From IMG/VR virus record IMGVR_UViG_3300015202_000004, positions 1 to 64,000 of that record: DNA of 64,000 bases. The stretch is one strand, 5' to 3'. A program made the position numbers and the translations under genes. The stretch's first letter is position 1, and every line of letters starts with the position of its first letter. This stretch comes from a virus. Under the pieces are notes generated by a model, which was given only the letters and a program-made list of their open reading frames with translations, was not told where the DNA came from and made no database searches. Positions 37,547 to 49,350 of the stretch are shown here, in pieces.

Positions 37547-40078
37547 TCAATCTTCTAAATTAATTACGTCGCCAAGTGGTTGAATTGTATCTACCAAGAA
37601 GCTTCTTTCATCTTTTTTACCTAAAGCAAAATAGGTGTCAAAAACCCTGATAGAATTTTTATATACTTTCCATACATTGGCAAAAACTAACCATTGTTCT
37701 TTGATTCCGTCAACGTTAGTTGCTGTAATTCGTGCGTATTTCTCGCCGTTCTTTTGATTCATTACTTTGATTTCTTCAATCGTACCAACGGTTTCTTGCT
37801 TTTTCTTTTGTACAGCAATTGAACGCAAAGTATGTCGGTATTTCTCGATTTTAGCTTTGTTCTTGGTTACGTAATCTTCTAGTAAAAATCCGAAGGCTTC
37901 ACGTTCGAAATCAATCTTCTCTTTGCTAGAATAATCTTCTACGTGCAATTCCTTGATAGGATTGTCGTTTTCATCAGTGCCAAGCTCGACCATTTCGAAA
38001 TCTTCAAGCTTCTTTTTCTTTTTGGCAATTTCAATTTTAGCCCATGTTAATGCACGATTCGGAGAAAATTCATCAAATGCACCTGCATGAACAAGAGCTT
38101 TTAAAACGTCAATCTTGGCAATTTGCCATCTGATTTTACGAGATAGAAAATCTTCGATTGAAGTAAATGGTCCAACTTCAGTTCTATTATCTACAATAAG
38201 TTTTGCGGCCTTTTCGCCAACGCGATTAATCAGCGTCAAGCCCGCTACAATTTCCGATTTCTCGTTAATAATAAAATTACTATCGGATAGATTTAAGCTC
38301 GGTGCTAGAACTTTATACTCCAATTTTTGGGAAGTTCTAATATATTCGATAACCTTATCTTTACCCTGTGAATTATGCACATTGTGAATCATAAGTGAAG
38401 TAAGATATTCAAGTGGAAACAAAGTGCGACAAAAGCCTGTTTGAAAACTAATTAAAGAATACGTCCAAGCATGGGCCTTGTTGAATCCATAACGACTAAA
38501 GGGTACAATAAGGTTCCATACGGCTTCAATTTCTGTTGCCGTGGCACCCTGCTCCAAAGATTGTTTTGTGAACTTATCTTCGAATGATTTTAGCTTTGCA
38601 ATTGTGTCTGGGTCGGTTTTAACTAATTCAGGCTTGACTTTTGTTAAGAATTTACGAACTTTTTCAGCCTCGGCGAATCCGCACCCGGTCATTTTCATGA
38701 CGATTCGGCTAATGTCTTCCTGGAAAACTGCAATGCCGAAATTCTTCTTAAGAACATCCTCAAGCTTAGGACTCGCGTAATACACCTTTGCTTGCCCGTT
38801 GTGACGGTCAATGAACTGGAAGGCAGCAGAAGTCGCTTTTTTATATTCAGGCAGTTCTGGGTCAATTGGCATGCCTTTATCGTCAAGTCTAGCATCCAAT
38901 GGACCAGGACGGAACAATGCAGTGATTAAAGCAAGGTCATAGAACTCTTTAGGGTTATACTTGTGCGTAAAAGCACTGATGCCTTCTGGCTCAAACTGAA
39001 ATACGCCCTGTGTTTGAAAGTTACCAATGGCTTTGTAGACCTTTGGAATATTCAAGCAAACGGCATTAAAATTGATTAATCTTTCGCCTGTGGATTCTCG
39101 AACAATGAATGGCAGCTTGTAATCGGTTCGGCAAACCTTGCCTTGCTTCTTGCATGCACAAGGACTCGGTGTATCGCCTTCCAATTGGTACCTAGACATA
39201 ATTAGTTTATTGCAAGTATCAAGCACCTTCAGGGTTTTGAGCCCAAGGATATCGACCTTAATAACTCCAACAGAACCTAATTCGTTGACGCCTTGGCCTT
39301 CAATCCATTCTGTGCAAAGATTCTTCTTGGTAAGACTTAAGGGCAGCGTTGTACGCGCCGTTTCAGGTAGAATAACTACACCTGCGGCGTGTTGACCACG
39401 ATACTTTGGAAGAGCATACAAAAGCTTGAAATGCTCAAATACTCGTGGAAATTTTCGCTGGAAGTCTTGAATGTCGGTGTTGGTGAAAATTTCTTCACGG
39501 CTCATAAGAAGTTCATCATCATTTTCGATAACGTCATCATCGGCCATGTCACCTGCGATTTGTGCATCAATCTTGAATGGAAGCTTCTTATTTAGCTCTT
39601 TGACCTCTTCAGGCGAAACAATTTGGTCACCATCTTCGTCCACGATAACGCGGCACAAGTCGTTCAAAAGACTCCTGACTTTATATCGTCCATAGGTTGG
39701 AATACCAACAACACGGTCTTCACCATATGTCTTTACAATGTATTCTTTAACCAAAGCTGGAAATGCAAAGTCCGTATCAATATCTGGCAAATCACCTGGA
39801 TTTACAGGATAGTGAAAAGAAGTATGACCAACCGGAGACGTTGTAAGCCCCAAGTCGATAGCAATTTGAGAATGACATTCATTGATTGGAACTAAAGCAG
39901 TAGAATTGCCTTCAAGTACGATATGCTGATATGCTTGAAGGAAAGCTTTAGGAATGAAATTAGGAGCCTGGGCTAATAGCTCAAGCTCTTTTTCGTGTCG
40001 AGGTGTGATTTCTAGTTTTGCTCTTACAAGCTTTTCTAAAATTTCACAATCAGTTAATGGCTGTGCGGTTTGTGACAT
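37547..40078 (-). CDS. dnaE: DNA polymerase III alpha subunit, C-terminal part (catalytic palm to OB)
   Basis: 843 residues from the ATG at 40078; an ATG two codons earlier (40084) lies only a base or two after the Shine-Dalgarno GGAG, which is better spaced for 40078. It carries the C-family catalytic aspartates in PDIDTDF (Asp99, Asp101, Asp103; two of these bind metal) and KVDILGLKTL, then the fingers (DLALITALFRPGPLD), the QEDISRIV helix, helix-hairpin-helix elements (GLTLINRVGEKAAKLI) and an OB-fold near the end (GTIEEIKVMNQKNGEKYARI). The GRGS motif and PHP domain are on the preceding gene, so this half alone should be inactive. The first 90 residues before PDIDTDF are not found in ordinary DnaE. 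Confidence 0.9.
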   Translation of the reverse strand: MSQTAQPLTDCEILEKLVRAKLEITPRHEKELELLAQAPNFIPKAFLQAYQHIVLEGNSTALVPINECHSQIAIDLGLTTSPVGHTSFHYPVNPGDLPDIDTDFAFPALVKEYIVKTYGEDRVVGIPTYGRYKVRSLLNDLCRVIVDEDGDQIVSPEEVKELNKKLPFKIDAQIAGDMADDDVIENDDELLMSREEIFTNTDIQDFQRKFPRVFEHFKLLYALPKYRGQHAAGVVILPETARTTLPLSLTKKNLCTEWIEGQGVNELGSVGVIKVDILGLKTLKVLDTCNKLIMSRYQLEGDTPSPCACKKQGKVCRTDYKLPFIVRESTGERLINFNAVCLNIPKVYKAIGNFQTQGVFQFEPEGISAFTHKYNPKEFYDLALITALFRPGPLDARLDDKGMPIDPELPEYKKATSAAFQFIDRHNGQAKVYYASPKLEDVLKKNFGIAVFQEDISRIVMKMTGCGFAEAEKVRKFLTKVKPELVKTDPDTIAKLKSFEDKFTKQSLEQGATATEIEAVWNLIVPFSRYGFNKAHAWTYSLISFQTGFCRTLFPLEYLTSLMIHNVHNSQGKDKVIEYIRTSQKLEYKVLAPSLNLSDSNFIINEKSEIVAGLTLINRVGEKAAKLIVDNRTEVGPFTSIEDFLSRKIRWQIAKIDVLKALVHAGAFDEFSPNRALTWAKIEIAKKKKKLEDFEMVELGTDENDNPIKELHVEDYSSKEKIDFEREAFGFLLEDYVTKNKAKIEKYRHTLRSIAVQKKKQETVGTIEEIKVMNQKNGEKYARITATNVDGIKEQWLVFANVWKVYKNSIRVFDTYFALGKKDERSFLVDTIQPLGDVINLED

Positions 40079-41481
40079 GCACATTCTCCAAGAATTTTGT
40101 CATAGTCGAGTTGGACATTTGCAATCTCGTTGCCAAGTCCAAAAGTTGGTGGAATTACGCCCTTTGATTTATCTAAGAAGCGTTCAAAATACAATTCAGC
40201 TTCGATAGGGTCAACGCCGCTAATATCAGTAACATAAGCAAGCAATGAACCACCGACGCTACCGCGTCCGATACCTACGGGTTGATGCTTTTTAGCTTCA
40301 CTAATAATATCGGCTACAATGTTGAAATATGAAGCGAAACCCAACGGGTTTACAGTATCTAATTCCAATTGTAGTCTTTGCACATATTCTGGCCTTTGGT
40401 CTAAACCTTTGCGCTTTAAACCTTCCCAGGCTGCTTTACTCAAAAAGTCTTCCTGGGTCAAATCGCCTGATTGAAAAATCGGGAACTTAAGCGAAGTATC
40501 AAAGGGATATTTTTCAACCATATCCCCAATCTTCCTAGTGTTTAAAATCGCTTCAGCTAATACTGAAGGGTCTTTGCCTGGCATGTACTTGCGCCATGAT
40601 TTTAGCAATAAATCTTCGTTCTTAATAAACAAATCTGTAAGCTGGTCATCGTTGTTAATTTCATCCGGCTCTTTGTCAAGCTGGCGAATCAAACCGCGAG
40701 TAGTATGCTGACCTTCGTCAATATAATGTGAATCACAAGTAATGACCATAGGAGTGTCAGTCGCTTCTGCCAAAGCAATGATTTTATGGTTGGTTTCTGT
40801 CTGTAATTTGATATCGTGAAGCTGTAATTCAAGATAAAAATTATCCGGTCCAAAAACTTGTTTGAATCTAGCGATAGTATTTACAGCACCGATAGCGTCA
40901 TTCGCTTCTAGAAGCTTGGAAATACGACCACCGAGGCAAGCAGTGGTGGCGATTAAACCACCCTTATGCTTTTCTAATACAGACCAATCTATTCTTGGCT
41001 TGTAGTAAATGCCGTCGATAACTGAATCGTTATGGATTTTTATAAGGTTTTGGCAACCTTCCCAATTTTTGGCAAGAAGGATAAGATGGTTGTACTTTTT
41101 TAGTTTATTGCGAATCTCTTGTGTTTCTTGCACATTATTTTGTGCTTTAAGAAGTTCTACTTTTTCTTTTTTAGTTGGCTTCTTTTCTTTTTTTAATTCA
41201 TCAACAACATCTTGAAGCGTAACAATCTTTTCATTAGCTCGATAGACTTCTGATACATCGTCTACAAAGTAAGCTTCTAGACCAAAAATTGGTTTGATTC
41301 CATGCTTTTTGCAGGCATCACGAAACTGAAGCCATGACGCTAACGTTCCGTGTTCCGTAATAGCTAATGCATTCATGCCTAATTCTTTGGCTTTACGGGC
41401 CATATCATCGGGTGCAGAAATTGAATCCTGCAATGAATAATAGCTATGGTTATGTAATCCTACAAAAAGCTTATCGCTCAT
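40054..41481 (-). CDS. dnaE: DNA polymerase III alpha subunit, N-terminal part (PHP and first palm motif)
   Basis: 475 residues, start directly after the deformylase stop. Residues 1-280 are the PHP domain: His10 and His12 (LHNHSYYS), ITEHG, GLEAYF and CDSHYID keep the metal-ligand pattern, so 3'-5' proofreading by PHP is plausible. Residues 405-437 (GRGSVGGSLLAYVTDISGVDP, given here as GRGSVGGS at 405 and FERFLD near 433) form the first palm motif. In normal DnaE, PDIDIDF follows within a few residues; here the protein instead runs on for about 40 unrelated residues to a stop. The next gene, overlapping by 25 bases in a different frame, supplies the rest. Confidence 0.9.
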   Translation of the reverse strand: MSDKLFVGLHNHSYYSLQDSISAPDDMARKAKELGMNALAITEHGTLASWLQFRDACKKHGIKPIFGLEAYFVDDVSEVYRANEKIVTLQDVVDELKKEKKPTKKEKVELLKAQNNVQETQEIRNKLKKYNHLILLAKNWEGCQNLIKIHNDSVIDGIYYKPRIDWSVLEKHKGGLIATTACLGGRISKLLEANDAIGAVNTIARFKQVFGPDNFYLELQLHDIKLQTETNHKIIALAEATDTPMVITCDSHYIDEGQHTTRGLIRQLDKEPDEINNDDQLTDLFIKNEDLLLKSWRKYMPGKDPSVLAEAILNTRKIGDMVEKYPFDTSLKFPIFQSGDLTQEDFLSKAAWEGLKRKGLDQRPEYVQRLQLELDTVNPLGFASYFNIVADIISEAKKHQPVGIGRGSVGGSLLAYVTDISGVDPIEAELYFERFLDKSKGVIPPTFGLGNEIANVQLDYDKILGECACHKPHSH

Positions 41482-43591: not shown

Positions 43592-45361
43592 TTAATTAAA
43601 CAATTTATAAACCATTTCGTGAGTTTCTTTACTTGAAAAAGTATAATCTTCAAGCGCTTTCATTCTGTCTCTTCGAAGTTCTTCCTTATGGCTTGAGGCA
43701 TGTGAATGAATATCGTTCACAGCATTGCTAACTAATTCTGCTGTTATAGGAACGATTTTATTTGTTTTAGAAGATTCTACCGCAGCCGCATAGACGCTTT
43801 GAATTACTGCATGTTCAATTTCAGCACCAGTCATTTGTTTTTCATATGCTTGGTTAGCTAATTTCATGAGGTCTAAGAATTCTAATTTAAAATTATTTTC
43901 TTTAGTTTTAATTTCAAAAATATCTTTGCATTCTGTGATATTTGGAAGGTCCAACCAAAATTTTGCATCAAACCTACCCGCTCTTTGCAGTTCAGGAGGT
44001 AATTTAGATACATTATTTGCCGTTGCAAACATAAATACCATTTCTTCACGCTCTTGCATCCAGGTTAAAACTTTGCCAAGAATTCGCAAACCCGTTCCTG
44101 AATCGCCGCTACTTCCGGTACCGCCAAGGGCTTTTTCTAGTTCATCAATCCAAAGAATACATGGTGCATTAGCCTCGGCAATAGATAAGGCATTATTAAG
44201 ATTATCTTCTGATTCACCTAAATATTTACCAAAAACAGAATCAAAGTTCAATCTAATGACCGGAATGTTCCATTGGAAGCCAACGTAACGAGCAAGTAAT
44301 GATTTACCCGCACCAGAAACGCCTACTAGGAGGACACCTTTTGGTGCCTTTAAATTATATTGGTCCCTAATTTTCTTGTTGAGATAAAGTCCGCGACCTT
44401 CAATATATTTTTTGAATTCTTCATGCCCGCCAACTCCAATATTATTTGGCACTTCGATATACTTAAGCGCACCGCTTTTTTCAATAATTTGCTTTTTCGA
44501 GTCTTTAATTTCTGTAACGGCAGATTCTTCTAAGCCTTTGTTTTTGACACAGGTATAAGCAAGGATTTGGGAGATTTCAGTCTCTGTCAAACCACGAAGA
44601 TTTTGAACAATTTTTTCCCGCAACATATCCGAATCGGGATGACTAGAACGCACTAACTTACCCTTAGAATTAGTATAATTAATGTCTAATTTAAGGCTAT
44701 TGCCTTCAGACATATCAGAGAGTGCATTATCTAATAACTCGTTAATATCTACTTCATCTGGCCTTGGCATGTGCAAGATTTGTACGTCTTTTTCAAAGTC
44801 GGCACAAGTTCTAGCCGTAGGAGAAAGGAATATTAAAAAACCATCATTAATTCTGACATGGTAAATTAAATCTTTAATTCTTCTAACGGTTTGCGGGTAA
44901 TCAGCCTTAGAAGGGTCCAATAAATTGTGAATATCTTTTAAGATATAAACCTTCTTATTAGAATTTGACATGCCATATTCATATGTTTCTTGAAAAGAAA
45001 CTACGGGAAGCGGCTTTGCTGGCTCACCTGTAATGCCAAATTGCTTCTGCATATCTGCCGCTTTGCTTGCGCTAGCTTTTGGAGTTTGTAAAATTTTTAA
45101 AGGGTTTTTATATATCCCATTTTCAGCTATCATGCTGGGCATAAGGTCAAGTAAACCCTCAGTCACCGACCAGGATAAAACTTTAAAAGATGTATCAAGA
45201 GCGTTATCTTCGCCTCGATGCAATACAGCAATTCTTCTAAATAGACGCAAAAAGCGTTCTTCTTCCTGCGATACAACCCAAGTAGCCATTCTGGCACAAA
45301 GCATTGTATTTAATTGCCGGATAAATTGAACGCTTTTTCCCTCTTTAGGGAGGTTTGTCAT
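43592..45361 (-). CDS. ycf46: Ycf46-like AAA+ ATPase
   Basis: 589 residues. The N-terminal half has the Ycf46 pattern: YILKDIHNLLD, then a predicted inactive P-loop-like domain with IFLSPTA and ILHMPRPDEVDINELL. After the linker LTETEISQILAY ... QIIEKSGALKYIE comes the AAA+ domain: VGGHEEFKKYIE, Walker A GVSGAGKS (347-354), FGKYLGESE, Walker B CILWIDELEKAL, sensor 1 FATANN and PPELQRAGRFD with the arginine finger. These blocks match cyanobacterial and plastid Ycf46 better than FtsH or Cdc48. The start overlaps the DUF2997 stop by one base. The substrate is unknown. Confidence 0.8.
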   Translation of the reverse strand: MTNLPKEGKSVQFIRQLNTMLCARMATWVVSQEEERFLRLFRRIAVLHRGEDNALDTSFKVLSWSVTEGLLDLMPSMIAENGIYKNPLKILQTPKASASKAADMQKQFGITGEPAKPLPVVSFQETYEYGMSNSNKKVYILKDIHNLLDPSKADYPQTVRRIKDLIYHVRINDGFLIFLSPTARTCADFEKDVQILHMPRPDEVDINELLDNALSDMSEGNSLKLDINYTNSKGKLVRSSHPDSDMLREKIVQNLRGLTETEISQILAYTCVKNKGLEESAVTEIKDSKKQIIEKSGALKYIEVPNNIGVGGHEEFKKYIEGRGLYLNKKIRDQYNLKAPKGVLLVGVSGAGKSLLARYVGFQWNIPVIRLNFDSVFGKYLGESEDNLNNALSIAEANAPCILWIDELEKALGGTGSSGDSGTGLRILGKVLTWMQEREEMVFMFATANNVSKLPPELQRAGRFDAKFWLDLPNITECKDIFEIKTKENNFKLEFLDLMKLANQAYEKQMTGAEIEHAVIQSVYAAAVESSKTNKIVPITAELVSNAVNDIHSHASSHKEELRRDRMKALEDYTFSSKETHEMVYKLFN

Positions 45362-45558
45362 TATGAAATCTCTTTTTCTCTTTCGTTATTTTGAATTTGT
45401 TCTTCAGTGGTTAACATTACCATGTCAACAATACCGCCAAATTTATCGACGTAAGGTTGAGTAACATTAACGCACTCCGTCGTTCCTAGTGTAACACCTG
45501 TGATATTGTTTACTAGGACGTTTCCGCGATTGTCGAAATGAATTTGAAAAGTTTTCAT
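45361..45558 (-). CDS. DUF2997-like small protein
   Basis: 65 residues between Ycf46-like and DUF1257-like genes, overlapping each by one base. The pattern 'IxFDxxGxVxVxxxGVxxxxCxxVTxxxxxxxGxVxxxxLTxE' (GNVLVNNITGVTLGTTECVNVT, given as GVTLGTTECVNVT) fits DUF2997, a family typically found next to DUF1257 and Ycf46 genes. It has a single cysteine and no membrane segment. Function of the family is not known. Confidence 0.6.
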   Translation of the reverse strand: MKTFQIHFDNRGNVLVNNITGVTLGTTECVNVTQPYVDKFGGIVDMVMLTTEEQIQNNEREKEIS

Positions 45559-45974
45559 TATGCTTGAATCACCTGGGCGTGGATAACGCCATTTTGGTCG
45601 GGTTCGCTTAGTTGAAGTTCATCACCTTGGCTGGCAGCAATAAGCTGGGCCTTGATGATATTGGTTGCCTGGGTGAGAATGCCCGCAAATTGCTCTTGGC
45701 CGTAACCTCTGTTAGGGTACTTAGCCATGGCTTTATGTTGGGAAATCTCGCCCCAGGCATAGTTATCGCATTCCATCATGTAATTGCCATCAGCACCCTT
45801 TTTAATGCCAATGTCATACTGTGGAAGAATAATGACCAAATCAGCTTTAGTGGTTGCTTCAGCCCACATTCTGACTTTGCCATTTTCTTTATATTCAATA
45901 CCCATGAAATGAAGCGCGGCTTTAATGAGGCCGAGGTCATTTAGTTGGGTTTTAACCGTTACAACGTGAGACAT
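45558..45974 (-). CDS. ycf35: DUF1257 / Ycf35-like protein
   Basis: 138 residues. The start MSHVVTVKTQLNDLGLIKAAL matches the DUF1257 opening 'MSHfs.ikTqi.d...L..AL..lG' (written here in part as SHVVTVKTQLNDL). Other family-like features are ADLVIILPQYDIGIKKGADG and the Tyr/Trp-rich YAWGEISQ. It is the second gene of a four-gene operon (HNH, this gene, DUF2997, Ycf46-like). The family is known mainly from cyanobacteria and plastids; its function is unknown. Confidence 0.7.
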   Translation of the reverse strand: MSHVVTVKTQLNDLGLIKAALHFMGIEYKENGKVRMWAEATTKADLVIILPQYDIGIKKGADGNYMMECDNYAWGEISQHKAMAKYPNRGYGQEQFAGILTQATNIIKAQLIAASQGDELQLSEPDQNGVIHAQVIQA

Positions 45975-45990
45975 TTATACTCCTTAAGTA

Positions 45991-46485
45991 TTATCTACCG
46001 TACATGAATTCTTCCCAATCAGGTCGTTTTGAGAAACGATTCATGAAAACGAAGTGGGAAGGTCGTTTTGGATTTGAGCTTAGGGTAAGACCTGATTTTG
46101 CCAATGACAAGTCAGCCTTCCTGGTGTTGCATCGCTGGCAGCAAGCCACGGTGTTTTCCCAAGTGTTTAGTCCACCCTTTGACTGAGGAATAATATGGTC
46201 GATAGTCATTTTAGGGTCTTTAACGCCGCAGTATTGGCAAACATGCTTGTCACGCACCAGGACGTGCTTTTTGCTATATGGAACGGGCTTACGCTTGTAG
46301 TTTACGTATTGATTTAGACGTATGACGGAAGGCATAGGCATGCTCTCATAGCAGCTTGTCAGATTGCGACCTTCCATGCTTTTGATTACATCAGCGCGAT
46401 TTTTGGTGATTAGCTTTACGGCCTTCCGAAGTGCAAGCACCTGGAGAGGTTCGTAACTGTTATTAAGAACGAGTACGTCCATCAT
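45991..46485 (-). CDS. HNH endonuclease, McrA-like
   Basis: 164 residues (163 from the second ATG). The nuclease core is complete: RDKHVCQYCG, then TIDHIIPQSKGG with the catalytic His, then NTVACCQRCNTRKADL, giving the zinc Cys-x2-Cys pairs and the HNH Asn and His. The opening MDVLVLNNSYEPLQVL is typical of a widespread bacterial HNH family that is not a homing type. It is the first gene after a consensus promoter and probably belongs to the same operon as the DUF1257, DUF2997 and Ycf46-like genes (16 bases to the next start). Confidence 0.8.
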   Translation of the reverse strand: MMDVLVLNNSYEPLQVLALRKAVKLITKNRADVIKSMEGRNLTSCYESMPMPSVIRLNQYVNYKRKPVPYSKKHVLVRDKHVCQYCGVKDPKMTIDHIIPQSKGGLNTWENTVACCQRCNTRKADLSLAKSGLTLSSNPKRPSHFVFMNRFSKRPDWEEFMYGR

Positions 46486-46494
46486 AGTTCCTGT

Positions 46495-46523
46495 ATTATA
46501 TTACAACCAAGAACATTTGTCAA
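46495..46523 (-). promoter_or_regulatory. exact consensus sigma70 promoter
   Basis: On the reverse strand TTGACA (46523-46518), exactly 17 bases, TATAAT (46500-46495). It begins 3 bases after the previous gene's stop and leads the HNH-DUF1257-DUF2997-Ycf46 operon. The predicted start of RNA is within a few bases of the ATG at 46485, so the message would be nearly leaderless. Confidence 0.85.
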
Positions 46524-48264: not shown

Positions 48265-49242
48265 TTATGGTAATATTGCTGGGTTTCCGTATAGATGGAA
48301 TTCTAGCAAGGTTTTGCGATTGGAACCGTTTAATGAACCATCGCGCTTGATAAGGTTGGTGGCGAAGTCTTGCTTGGCATGCAATAAAGCATCGCCCATA
48401 CATTCGCCTGCCTGTATTCTATTGTAAAACATTTCAGCTAAGAAGTCTGCGGCAGCGGCTGGTGGGGCACTTGGACCGTATGCTACCATCGTGGAGCAAA
48501 CGATGCCAACTGCACCAGAGTACAAAGCCATCATTGGGATGGACATTTCTTTATTTCTACCAGTAATATATCCGCCATAGCAAGCTTCAAAAAATCCTAC
48601 CGAGCCTTTAAAGTTACCTTGAACTGGTTCCATGGCTATGGGATACGTATTATTAAATTGACCATAAAAATATGGTGTTGTTTGTGCGCCATGCAGATTC
48701 ACATAGGCATGTTTTTTAATTGTTTCATTGGGCGCTAAAGTGCTTGGATTAGTTGGAGGAGCAACATTCTCGTTGTTCATTTGGAAATTGCCGTTCATAT
48801 AATCAGCAATGCCCTTCCAAACTTGAGCCACAATAGCAAACCAACCAGCATTCGTTGACTTCACAGTAGCGAAACCAGCTTGGCTTGTAAGCATTGTTTT
48901 CAAATAATCAAATGTAGGATTTAATTGTTCATCTGGAAGACGAGCAATTACCTTATTTGGCATCAAATATGTTGAGTCTATTGTACAAGCATATGGTGAA
49001 TCTGTCAATACAACATCGTCAGGGTCCGTTGCAGGGTTTGCGACACTGGCGAATGGTACAACGTCGGGTCCACCAACAATCAAAATACCATTTTCAATCT
49101 TATCACAGTGCATTTTTGTACACATATAATCGGCCATAGGCAATACATCAACGTCAGGAGATATAGCCTTAAGCATAGCCATGATTTCATCTTGATGGCC
49201 TGGGTACTTGTCAAACAACTTCTGGCTGGTTACGATAGTCAT
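48265..49242 (-). CDS. C25-like caspase-fold cysteine protease
   Basis: 325 residues from the ATG at 49242, which has AAGGA correctly spaced; a GTG at 49257 in the same frame does not. The pattern is that of gingipain/C25 peptidases: a Rossmann-like start (IENGILIVGGPDVVPFA), then YVNLHGAQ with His184, then VGFFEACYGG with Cys221 as the likely nucleophile, then SIPMMALYSGAVGIVCSTMV and the family ending FHLYGNPAI ('fxlyGDPal'). No signal peptide is seen, so it acts in the host cytoplasm or in the virion. C25 enzymes are normally secreted bacterial proteases. Substrate unknown. Confidence 0.7.
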   Translation of the reverse strand: MTIVTSQKLFDKYPGHQDEIMAMLKAISPDVDVLPMADYMCTKMHCDKIENGILIVGGPDVVPFASVANPATDPDDVVLTDSPYACTIDSTYLMPNKVIARLPDEQLNPTFDYLKTMLTSQAGFATVKSTNAGWFAIVAQVWKGIADYMNGNFQMNNENVAPPTNPSTLAPNETIKKHAYVNLHGAQTTPYFYGQFNNTYPIAMEPVQGNFKGSVGFFEACYGGYITGRNKEMSIPMMALYSGAVGIVCSTMVAYGPSAPPAAAADFLAEMFYNRIQAGECMGDALLHAKQDFATNLIKRDGSLNGSNRKTLLEFHLYGNPAILP

Positions 49243-49350
49243 TTTGCATTCCTTCACAAACTGTTATGAAAAGAAATATGCAATCTATGCTCATTAAGCA
49301 TCATTCAAGAATTTATAAATTTTTTCTAATTGAATTTGTAACAAATTTAT

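Follow-up and report, generated by a model that had tools for sequence, protein, structure and literature searches.

In Synechocystis, the genes for DUF2997 and Ycf35 form a conserved cluster with fed7 (DUF2997-ycf35-fed7; PMC4284462), and ycf46 (slr0374) is situated in another operon (PMC7496141). Loss of Ycf46 lowers the activity of the carbonic anhydrase EcaB, according to Jiang et al. 2015 as cited in PMC7496141. In contractile injection systems, Pvc15 carries tandem AAA domains of which D2 alone is an active ATPase, and its clients are chosen by N-terminal signal peptides (PMC11495950). Papers on DUF1257 (the Ycf35 family) and DUF2997 were sparse in our literature search, and none that we found described the set as a phage or plasmid module.

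We analysed a window of 64,000 nucleotides (positions 1 to 64,000) from a 194-kb virus record, IMGVR_UViG_3300015202_000004, in which an operon at window positions 43592-46523 is a distant copy of a set common to cyanobacteria, plasmids, planctomycetes and many other phages. The record encodes a tail sheath, baseplate, DNA polymerase III alpha, a UvsX/RecA-like recombinase and a phage sigma factor, and is therefore that of a contractile-tailed phage. As originally predicted, four minus-strand genes lay downstream of an exact TTGACA-N17-TATAAT sigma-70-type promoter (46495-46523, minus strand): an HNH endonuclease of 164 aa (45991-46485), a DUF1257 (Ycf35)-like protein of 138 aa (45558-45974), a DUF2997-like protein of 65 aa (45361-45558) and a Ycf46-type AAA+ ATPase of 589 aa (43592-45361). 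The single-base overlaps expected among the last three were present as TAATG at both the DUF1257/DUF2997 and DUF2997/ATPase junctions, and the 16-nt gap between HNH and DUF1257 contained AAGGAG, 5 nt upstream of the DUF1257 start. The trio (DUF1257, DUF2997 and ATPase) sat among replication and recombination genes. DNA polymerase III alpha (window 37547-41481) comprised two overlapping ORFs in different frames, covering consecutive parts of phrog_405, and a 330-aa protein (window 48265-49257) had a weak, below cut-off match to peptidase C25 (gingipain-type). The 194-kb record also carried 46 tRNA genes at 88-140 kb, and one gene called as tRNA-Pyl with anticodon cta (L032:5778-5853, minus strand) is a possible amber suppressor.

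The window shares its three families with the cyanobacterial and plastid Ycf35-DUF2997-Ycf46 set, and the MSH start and YDIG motif of DUF1257 are common to both. However, the window ATPase is only ~34% identical to its cyanobacterial counterparts, Pfam fails on the two small proteins, and neither photosynthesis genes nor fed7 accompany them. The description of the three genes as cyanobacterial neighbours was correct for plasmids, where all three lie close together, but not for Synechocystis with its separately encoded Ycf46. The trio was confirmed and its families had been correctly identified; the version in the window is a divergent minimal variant of a broad, mobile module.

The promoter at 46523-46495 was the only 12/12 match within the 64-kb window. 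Across the 194-kb record there were 23 perfect copies where 0.25 would be expected, the majority at 89-193 kb, a region that also holds tRNA genes and the right end, and 63 strong sigma-70-type sites against 6.6 expected. The 23 copies rule out a signal unique to this operon. Together with the phage-encoded sigma factor, they also weaken the case that this promoter in particular marks immediate early expression, although the predicted exactness stands. At 12 of the 63 strong sites a start codon lay exactly 6 nt past the -10 box, a sharp peak which points to leaderless messages, seemingly common in this phage. The HNH ATG lies 9 nt after the end of the -10 box, so that a standard transcription start would fall 2-3 nt before it, and the AGGA preceding HNH sits at or upstream of that predicted start point. 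The HNH endonuclease itself was well supported, with an HNH motif and matches to PF14279 (4.6e-14) and PF01844 (5.6e-14; 52.5 bits against a cut-off of 21.4). It had been suggested as a member of the set, but a co-occurrence survey found its family at 0 of ~80 trio loci, and the gene is therefore probably a separate neighbour of the trio and not a component of the module.

Identity of the trio proteins

At E<=1, PF06868 did not match the window DUF1257-like protein and PF11211 did not match the DUF2997-like protein; NCBIfam models likewise failed to place the two in the families predicted for them. Relatives found through phage neighbourhoods passed both models, and the phage relatives L001, L003 and L009 passed PF06868. 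Profiles were built from relatives at other loci, with the window sequences left out, and searched against the 3039 six-frame ORFs of the 194-kb record. With the DUF1257 profile the window protein was the only significant ORF (77.5 bits, E 2e-22), and with cyanobacterial and Firmicutes sequences included (24 sequences) it scored 80.7 bits (E 2e-23), upholding the DUF1257 call despite the Pfam result. A profile of six plasmid sequences annotated as DUF1257 also recovered it (E 1.3e-10). The MSH start, D70, Q102 and G117, each conserved at 97-100% (n=63 sequences), were all present; MSH was invariant in the 63 aligned DUF1257 sequences and occurred in 65 of 71 distinct matches, most of the remainder being fragments or having uncertain gene starts. 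An AlphaFold model (pLDDT 86.6) had an alpha-beta-beta-beta-alpha-beta order and a poorly ordered MSH start. The best viral match of DUF1257 was a 147-aa protein (E 1.5e-6). A PD-(D/E)XK nuclease active site was rejected as positions 45, 54 and 58 were not conserved across the family (at position 54, 19% of sequences have D and 60% have P; position 45 is mostly a gap).

The DUF2997 assignment is weaker. A profile of 23 sequences ranked the window protein first of the 3039 ORFs, yet at only 13.7 bits (E 0.0075), and a profile from six plasmid sequences alone did not find it. The rest of the identification is carried by position, between DUF1257 and the ATPase, and by a G..C...T pattern (GTTECVNVT).

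The ATPase matched PF00004 (4.5e-26) and scored 311 bits (E 1.7e-93) against a profile built from 11 related phage ATPases, of which the majority belong to trio loci. In agreement with the predicted Ycf46-type AAA+ ATPase, it matched cyanobacterial plasmid ATPases linked to DUF1257 and DUF2997 at E 4e-60 (Geminocystis) to 2e-58; the Ycf46-type assignment is made by comparison with these plasmid ATPases. In alignments the C-terminal domain retained Walker A (GVSGAGKS, residues 347-354; 44300-44323, minus strand), Walker B (ILWIDE, residues 402-407; 44141-44158, minus strand), sensor 1 and arginine residues, as in a classical AAA protein of the Ycf46 type. The best solved relatives of the AAA core were p97/Cdc48 and an archaeal VCP-like ATPase (E 1e-41), but unlike these, the first AAA domain of the window protein has no ATPase motifs. 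When halves of 54 ATPases were compared by hhalign, the N-terminal half aligned in register with the C-terminal sensor-1-to-lid region (E 0.0016, probability 16%). This alignment and the lack of Walker motifs in the N-terminal half suggest a degenerate, dead first AAA domain at about residues 127-275 (44537-44983, minus strand). Such a tandem with only the second domain active would resemble Pvc15, a comparison of working principle and not of membership: the partners differ, and no effector or injection function was seen here. The ATPase structure model was poor (pLDDT 61); both the D1 fold and assembly into a ring are therefore predictions from sequence.

Neither FtsH nor CDC48 fitted the ATPase. 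The FtsH model gave 76.6 bits against a cut-off of 600, with no match to a zinc metalloprotease or peptidase family, and TIGR01243 (CDC48) gave 96.1 bits against 802.65, with no match to the Cdc48 N domain; both models matched only via the common AAA core. Placement in FtsH/Cdc48, with the small proteins in unrelated families, was thus not what we found. IetA of IetAS was likewise rejected (73.6 bits against a cut-off of 510), and there was no subtilisin-type protease among the adjacent genes scanned. In a tree the window ATPase fell outside both main groups, beside another long branch, and its placement is unsure.

Occurrence of the trio in other genomes

All three genes were found in siphophages of five proteobacterial genera, with named examples in Rhizobium phages RHph_I4 and L338C, Agrobacterium phage JP1, Rhodobacter phage RcMenchie, Aeromonas phage HJ05 and Pseudomonas phage SM1. 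There they also lie close together, in the order ATPase, ~210-aa protein, DUF1257, DUF2997 and ~120-aa protein, whereas the window phage is without the 210-aa protein and h90 (a 90-120-aa protein). One viral scan yielded 50 contigs, several near 200 kb and one adjoining a terminase gene, and trio contigs in IMG/VR reached ~205 kb. Viral contigs scanned with the window ATPase alone returned nothing, and with the window DUF1257 alone only two loci. Among 52 viral loci (the 50-contig scan plus two more), DUF2997 was directly beside DUF1257 in 51 and the ATPase was present in 48, the exceptions being cut by contig ends apart from L086; 40 of the loci had a DUF3150-type protein and 35 had h90, most absences falling at contig ends. 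Since many of the contigs are closely related, the counts are not independent. Planctomycetota and the ~200-kb viral contigs have DUF1257, DUF2997 and ATPase in the same order as the window phage, but this is followed by the DUF3150-type gene and h90, both missing here, and the window ATPase lies outside their group in the tree. A profile search of the whole record for the accessory families (~210-aa, DUF3150-type and h90) found none.

The trio was also encoded on Nitrospirota, Bacillus, Paenibacillus and cyanobacterial plasmids and on Planctomycetota contigs; on the cyanobacterial plasmids (Geminocystis, Pseudanabaena and Nostoc) its members were within a few kb, and on one of them an Hsp70 gene adjoined the set. 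An actinobacterial (Paenarthrobacter) plasmid has the set too, with a weak DUF1257-like gene. The trio is a co-inherited unit across phages, plasmids and cells, as had been proposed. Some phages (Catdawg, SIO-2) carry the ATPase without its partners, and contig L086 (7950-10334) has DUF1257, DUF2997, the DUF3150-type gene and h90 with no ATPase between, indicating that the parts are not strictly bound.

A possible protein-remodelling role

The best explanation, to which we give a probability of about 0.58, is that the trio encodes a protein-remodelling ring ATPase in which the first AAA domain is dead and the second active, and which works with DUF1257 and DUF2997 as partners. The ATPase would assemble into a ring and use ATP to pull on, unfold or dismantle its target, whether a single protein or a complex. 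Its dedicated partners would be DUF1257 and DUF2997, either adaptors choosing the target or the first thing gripped, with the invariant MSH start of DUF1257 as a candidate handle. Translational coupling would yield the three proteins together, with host RNA polymerase probably transcribing their genes from the consensus promoter. The most likely target in the phage is a replication complex or one of the host. Gene identity, active-site motifs, co-inheritance and overlaps were observed directly, and from them we infer how the ring assembles, what the partners do, what is remodelled and when. The original prediction had named host takeover, which is still a hypothesis, and a remodelling role, which fits the intact ATPase site (Walker A and B, sensor 1 and arginine residues).

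In this phage the trio has replication and recombination genes around it, and in Rhizobium phages it precedes DnaB and DNA polymerase. Both settings would also suit a complex directed at DNA or RNA, with DUF1257 serving as a nuclease-like subunit, the ATPase acting in replication or repair as a motor or loader, and HNH providing a further nuclease. The secondary structure order of DUF1257 and its weak fold matches to AbaSI, R2 endonuclease and phage resolvases point the same way. However, we consider such a complex doubtful: no PDB match was significant (none below E 0.04), DUF1257 proteins do not preserve acidic residues where a nuclease active site would place them, proteins are the substrates of classical AAA members of this clade, and the HNH family is missing from other trio loci. 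Somewhat less probable again is a defence or counter-defence device that guards the phage or host element from other genetic elements. A patchy distribution over phages and plasmids and an AAA core common to the ATPase and IetA would be in keeping with this, but the IetA score was far below its cut-off, DUF1257 and DUF2997 match no PADLOC model, the trio also occurs in Planctomycetota genomes, and Ycf35 and Ycf46 are found in plastids (PMC5940233).

In cyanobacteria, the ATPase and its partners may mature or remodel a [4Fe-4S] protein, and the same could be asked of the phage set. Fer4_12/radical SAM or 4Fe-4S genes were near the ATPase on four plasmids (L096, L097, L099 and L101; from Treponema, B. 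licheniformis, Paenibacillus and Paenarthrobacter), the following gene in Treponema being annotated as phage baseplate assembly protein V; the cyanobacterial cluster includes fed7 (PMC4284462) and slr0374 responds to iron deficiency (PMC7496141). Yet a Fer4_12/radical SAM protein was absent from this phage and none stood beside the trio in the phage loci that we read, making an iron-sulfur or redox helper an unlikely reading here. That small genes with no relation to one another simply happen to precede an ordinary AAA gene might be argued from the lack of Pfam DUF1257 and DUF2997 matches and the weak DUF2997 score taken alone (E 0.0075), but is very improbable given a DUF1257 match at E 2e-23 and a DUF1257-DUF2997-AAA order that recurs in L002 and L025, in the majority of 50 further viral contigs and in Planctomycetota.

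Beyond the protein-remodelling reading of this operon, we tentatively raise a broader possibility: that the trio is an undescribed remodelling machine mainly of phages and plasmids, with the DUF3150-type protein and h90 as optional parts, and that cyanobacterial and plastid Ycf35 and Ycf46 are a domesticated cellular branch of it. That culturable phages and plasmids carry the trio where the host is not photosynthetic points to a general role, and these phages and plasmids offer small genetic systems in which to study what Ycf35 and Ycf46 do in photosynthetic cells.

Variant ATPase genes

The same phage encoded a second AAA+ protein (L029:15692-17176; record 79692-81176), distantly like the trio ATPase (38.9 bits). 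In the ATPases of two viral contigs (L001:6486-8000 and L027:5142-6704) a Walker B block of ~35-40 aa was situated before Walker A and was lacking at its normal place, giving a segment-permuted AAA core. Group I introns (Rfam RF00028) interrupted the ATPase gene at L039:9538-10320, L044:9540-10322, L054:9502-10284 and L067:8508-9295; in L039 and L067 the intron lies at the Walker B codon and carries an HNH-type ORF. The ATPase genes of L068 and L070 resemble these and are candidates for the same kind of interruption.
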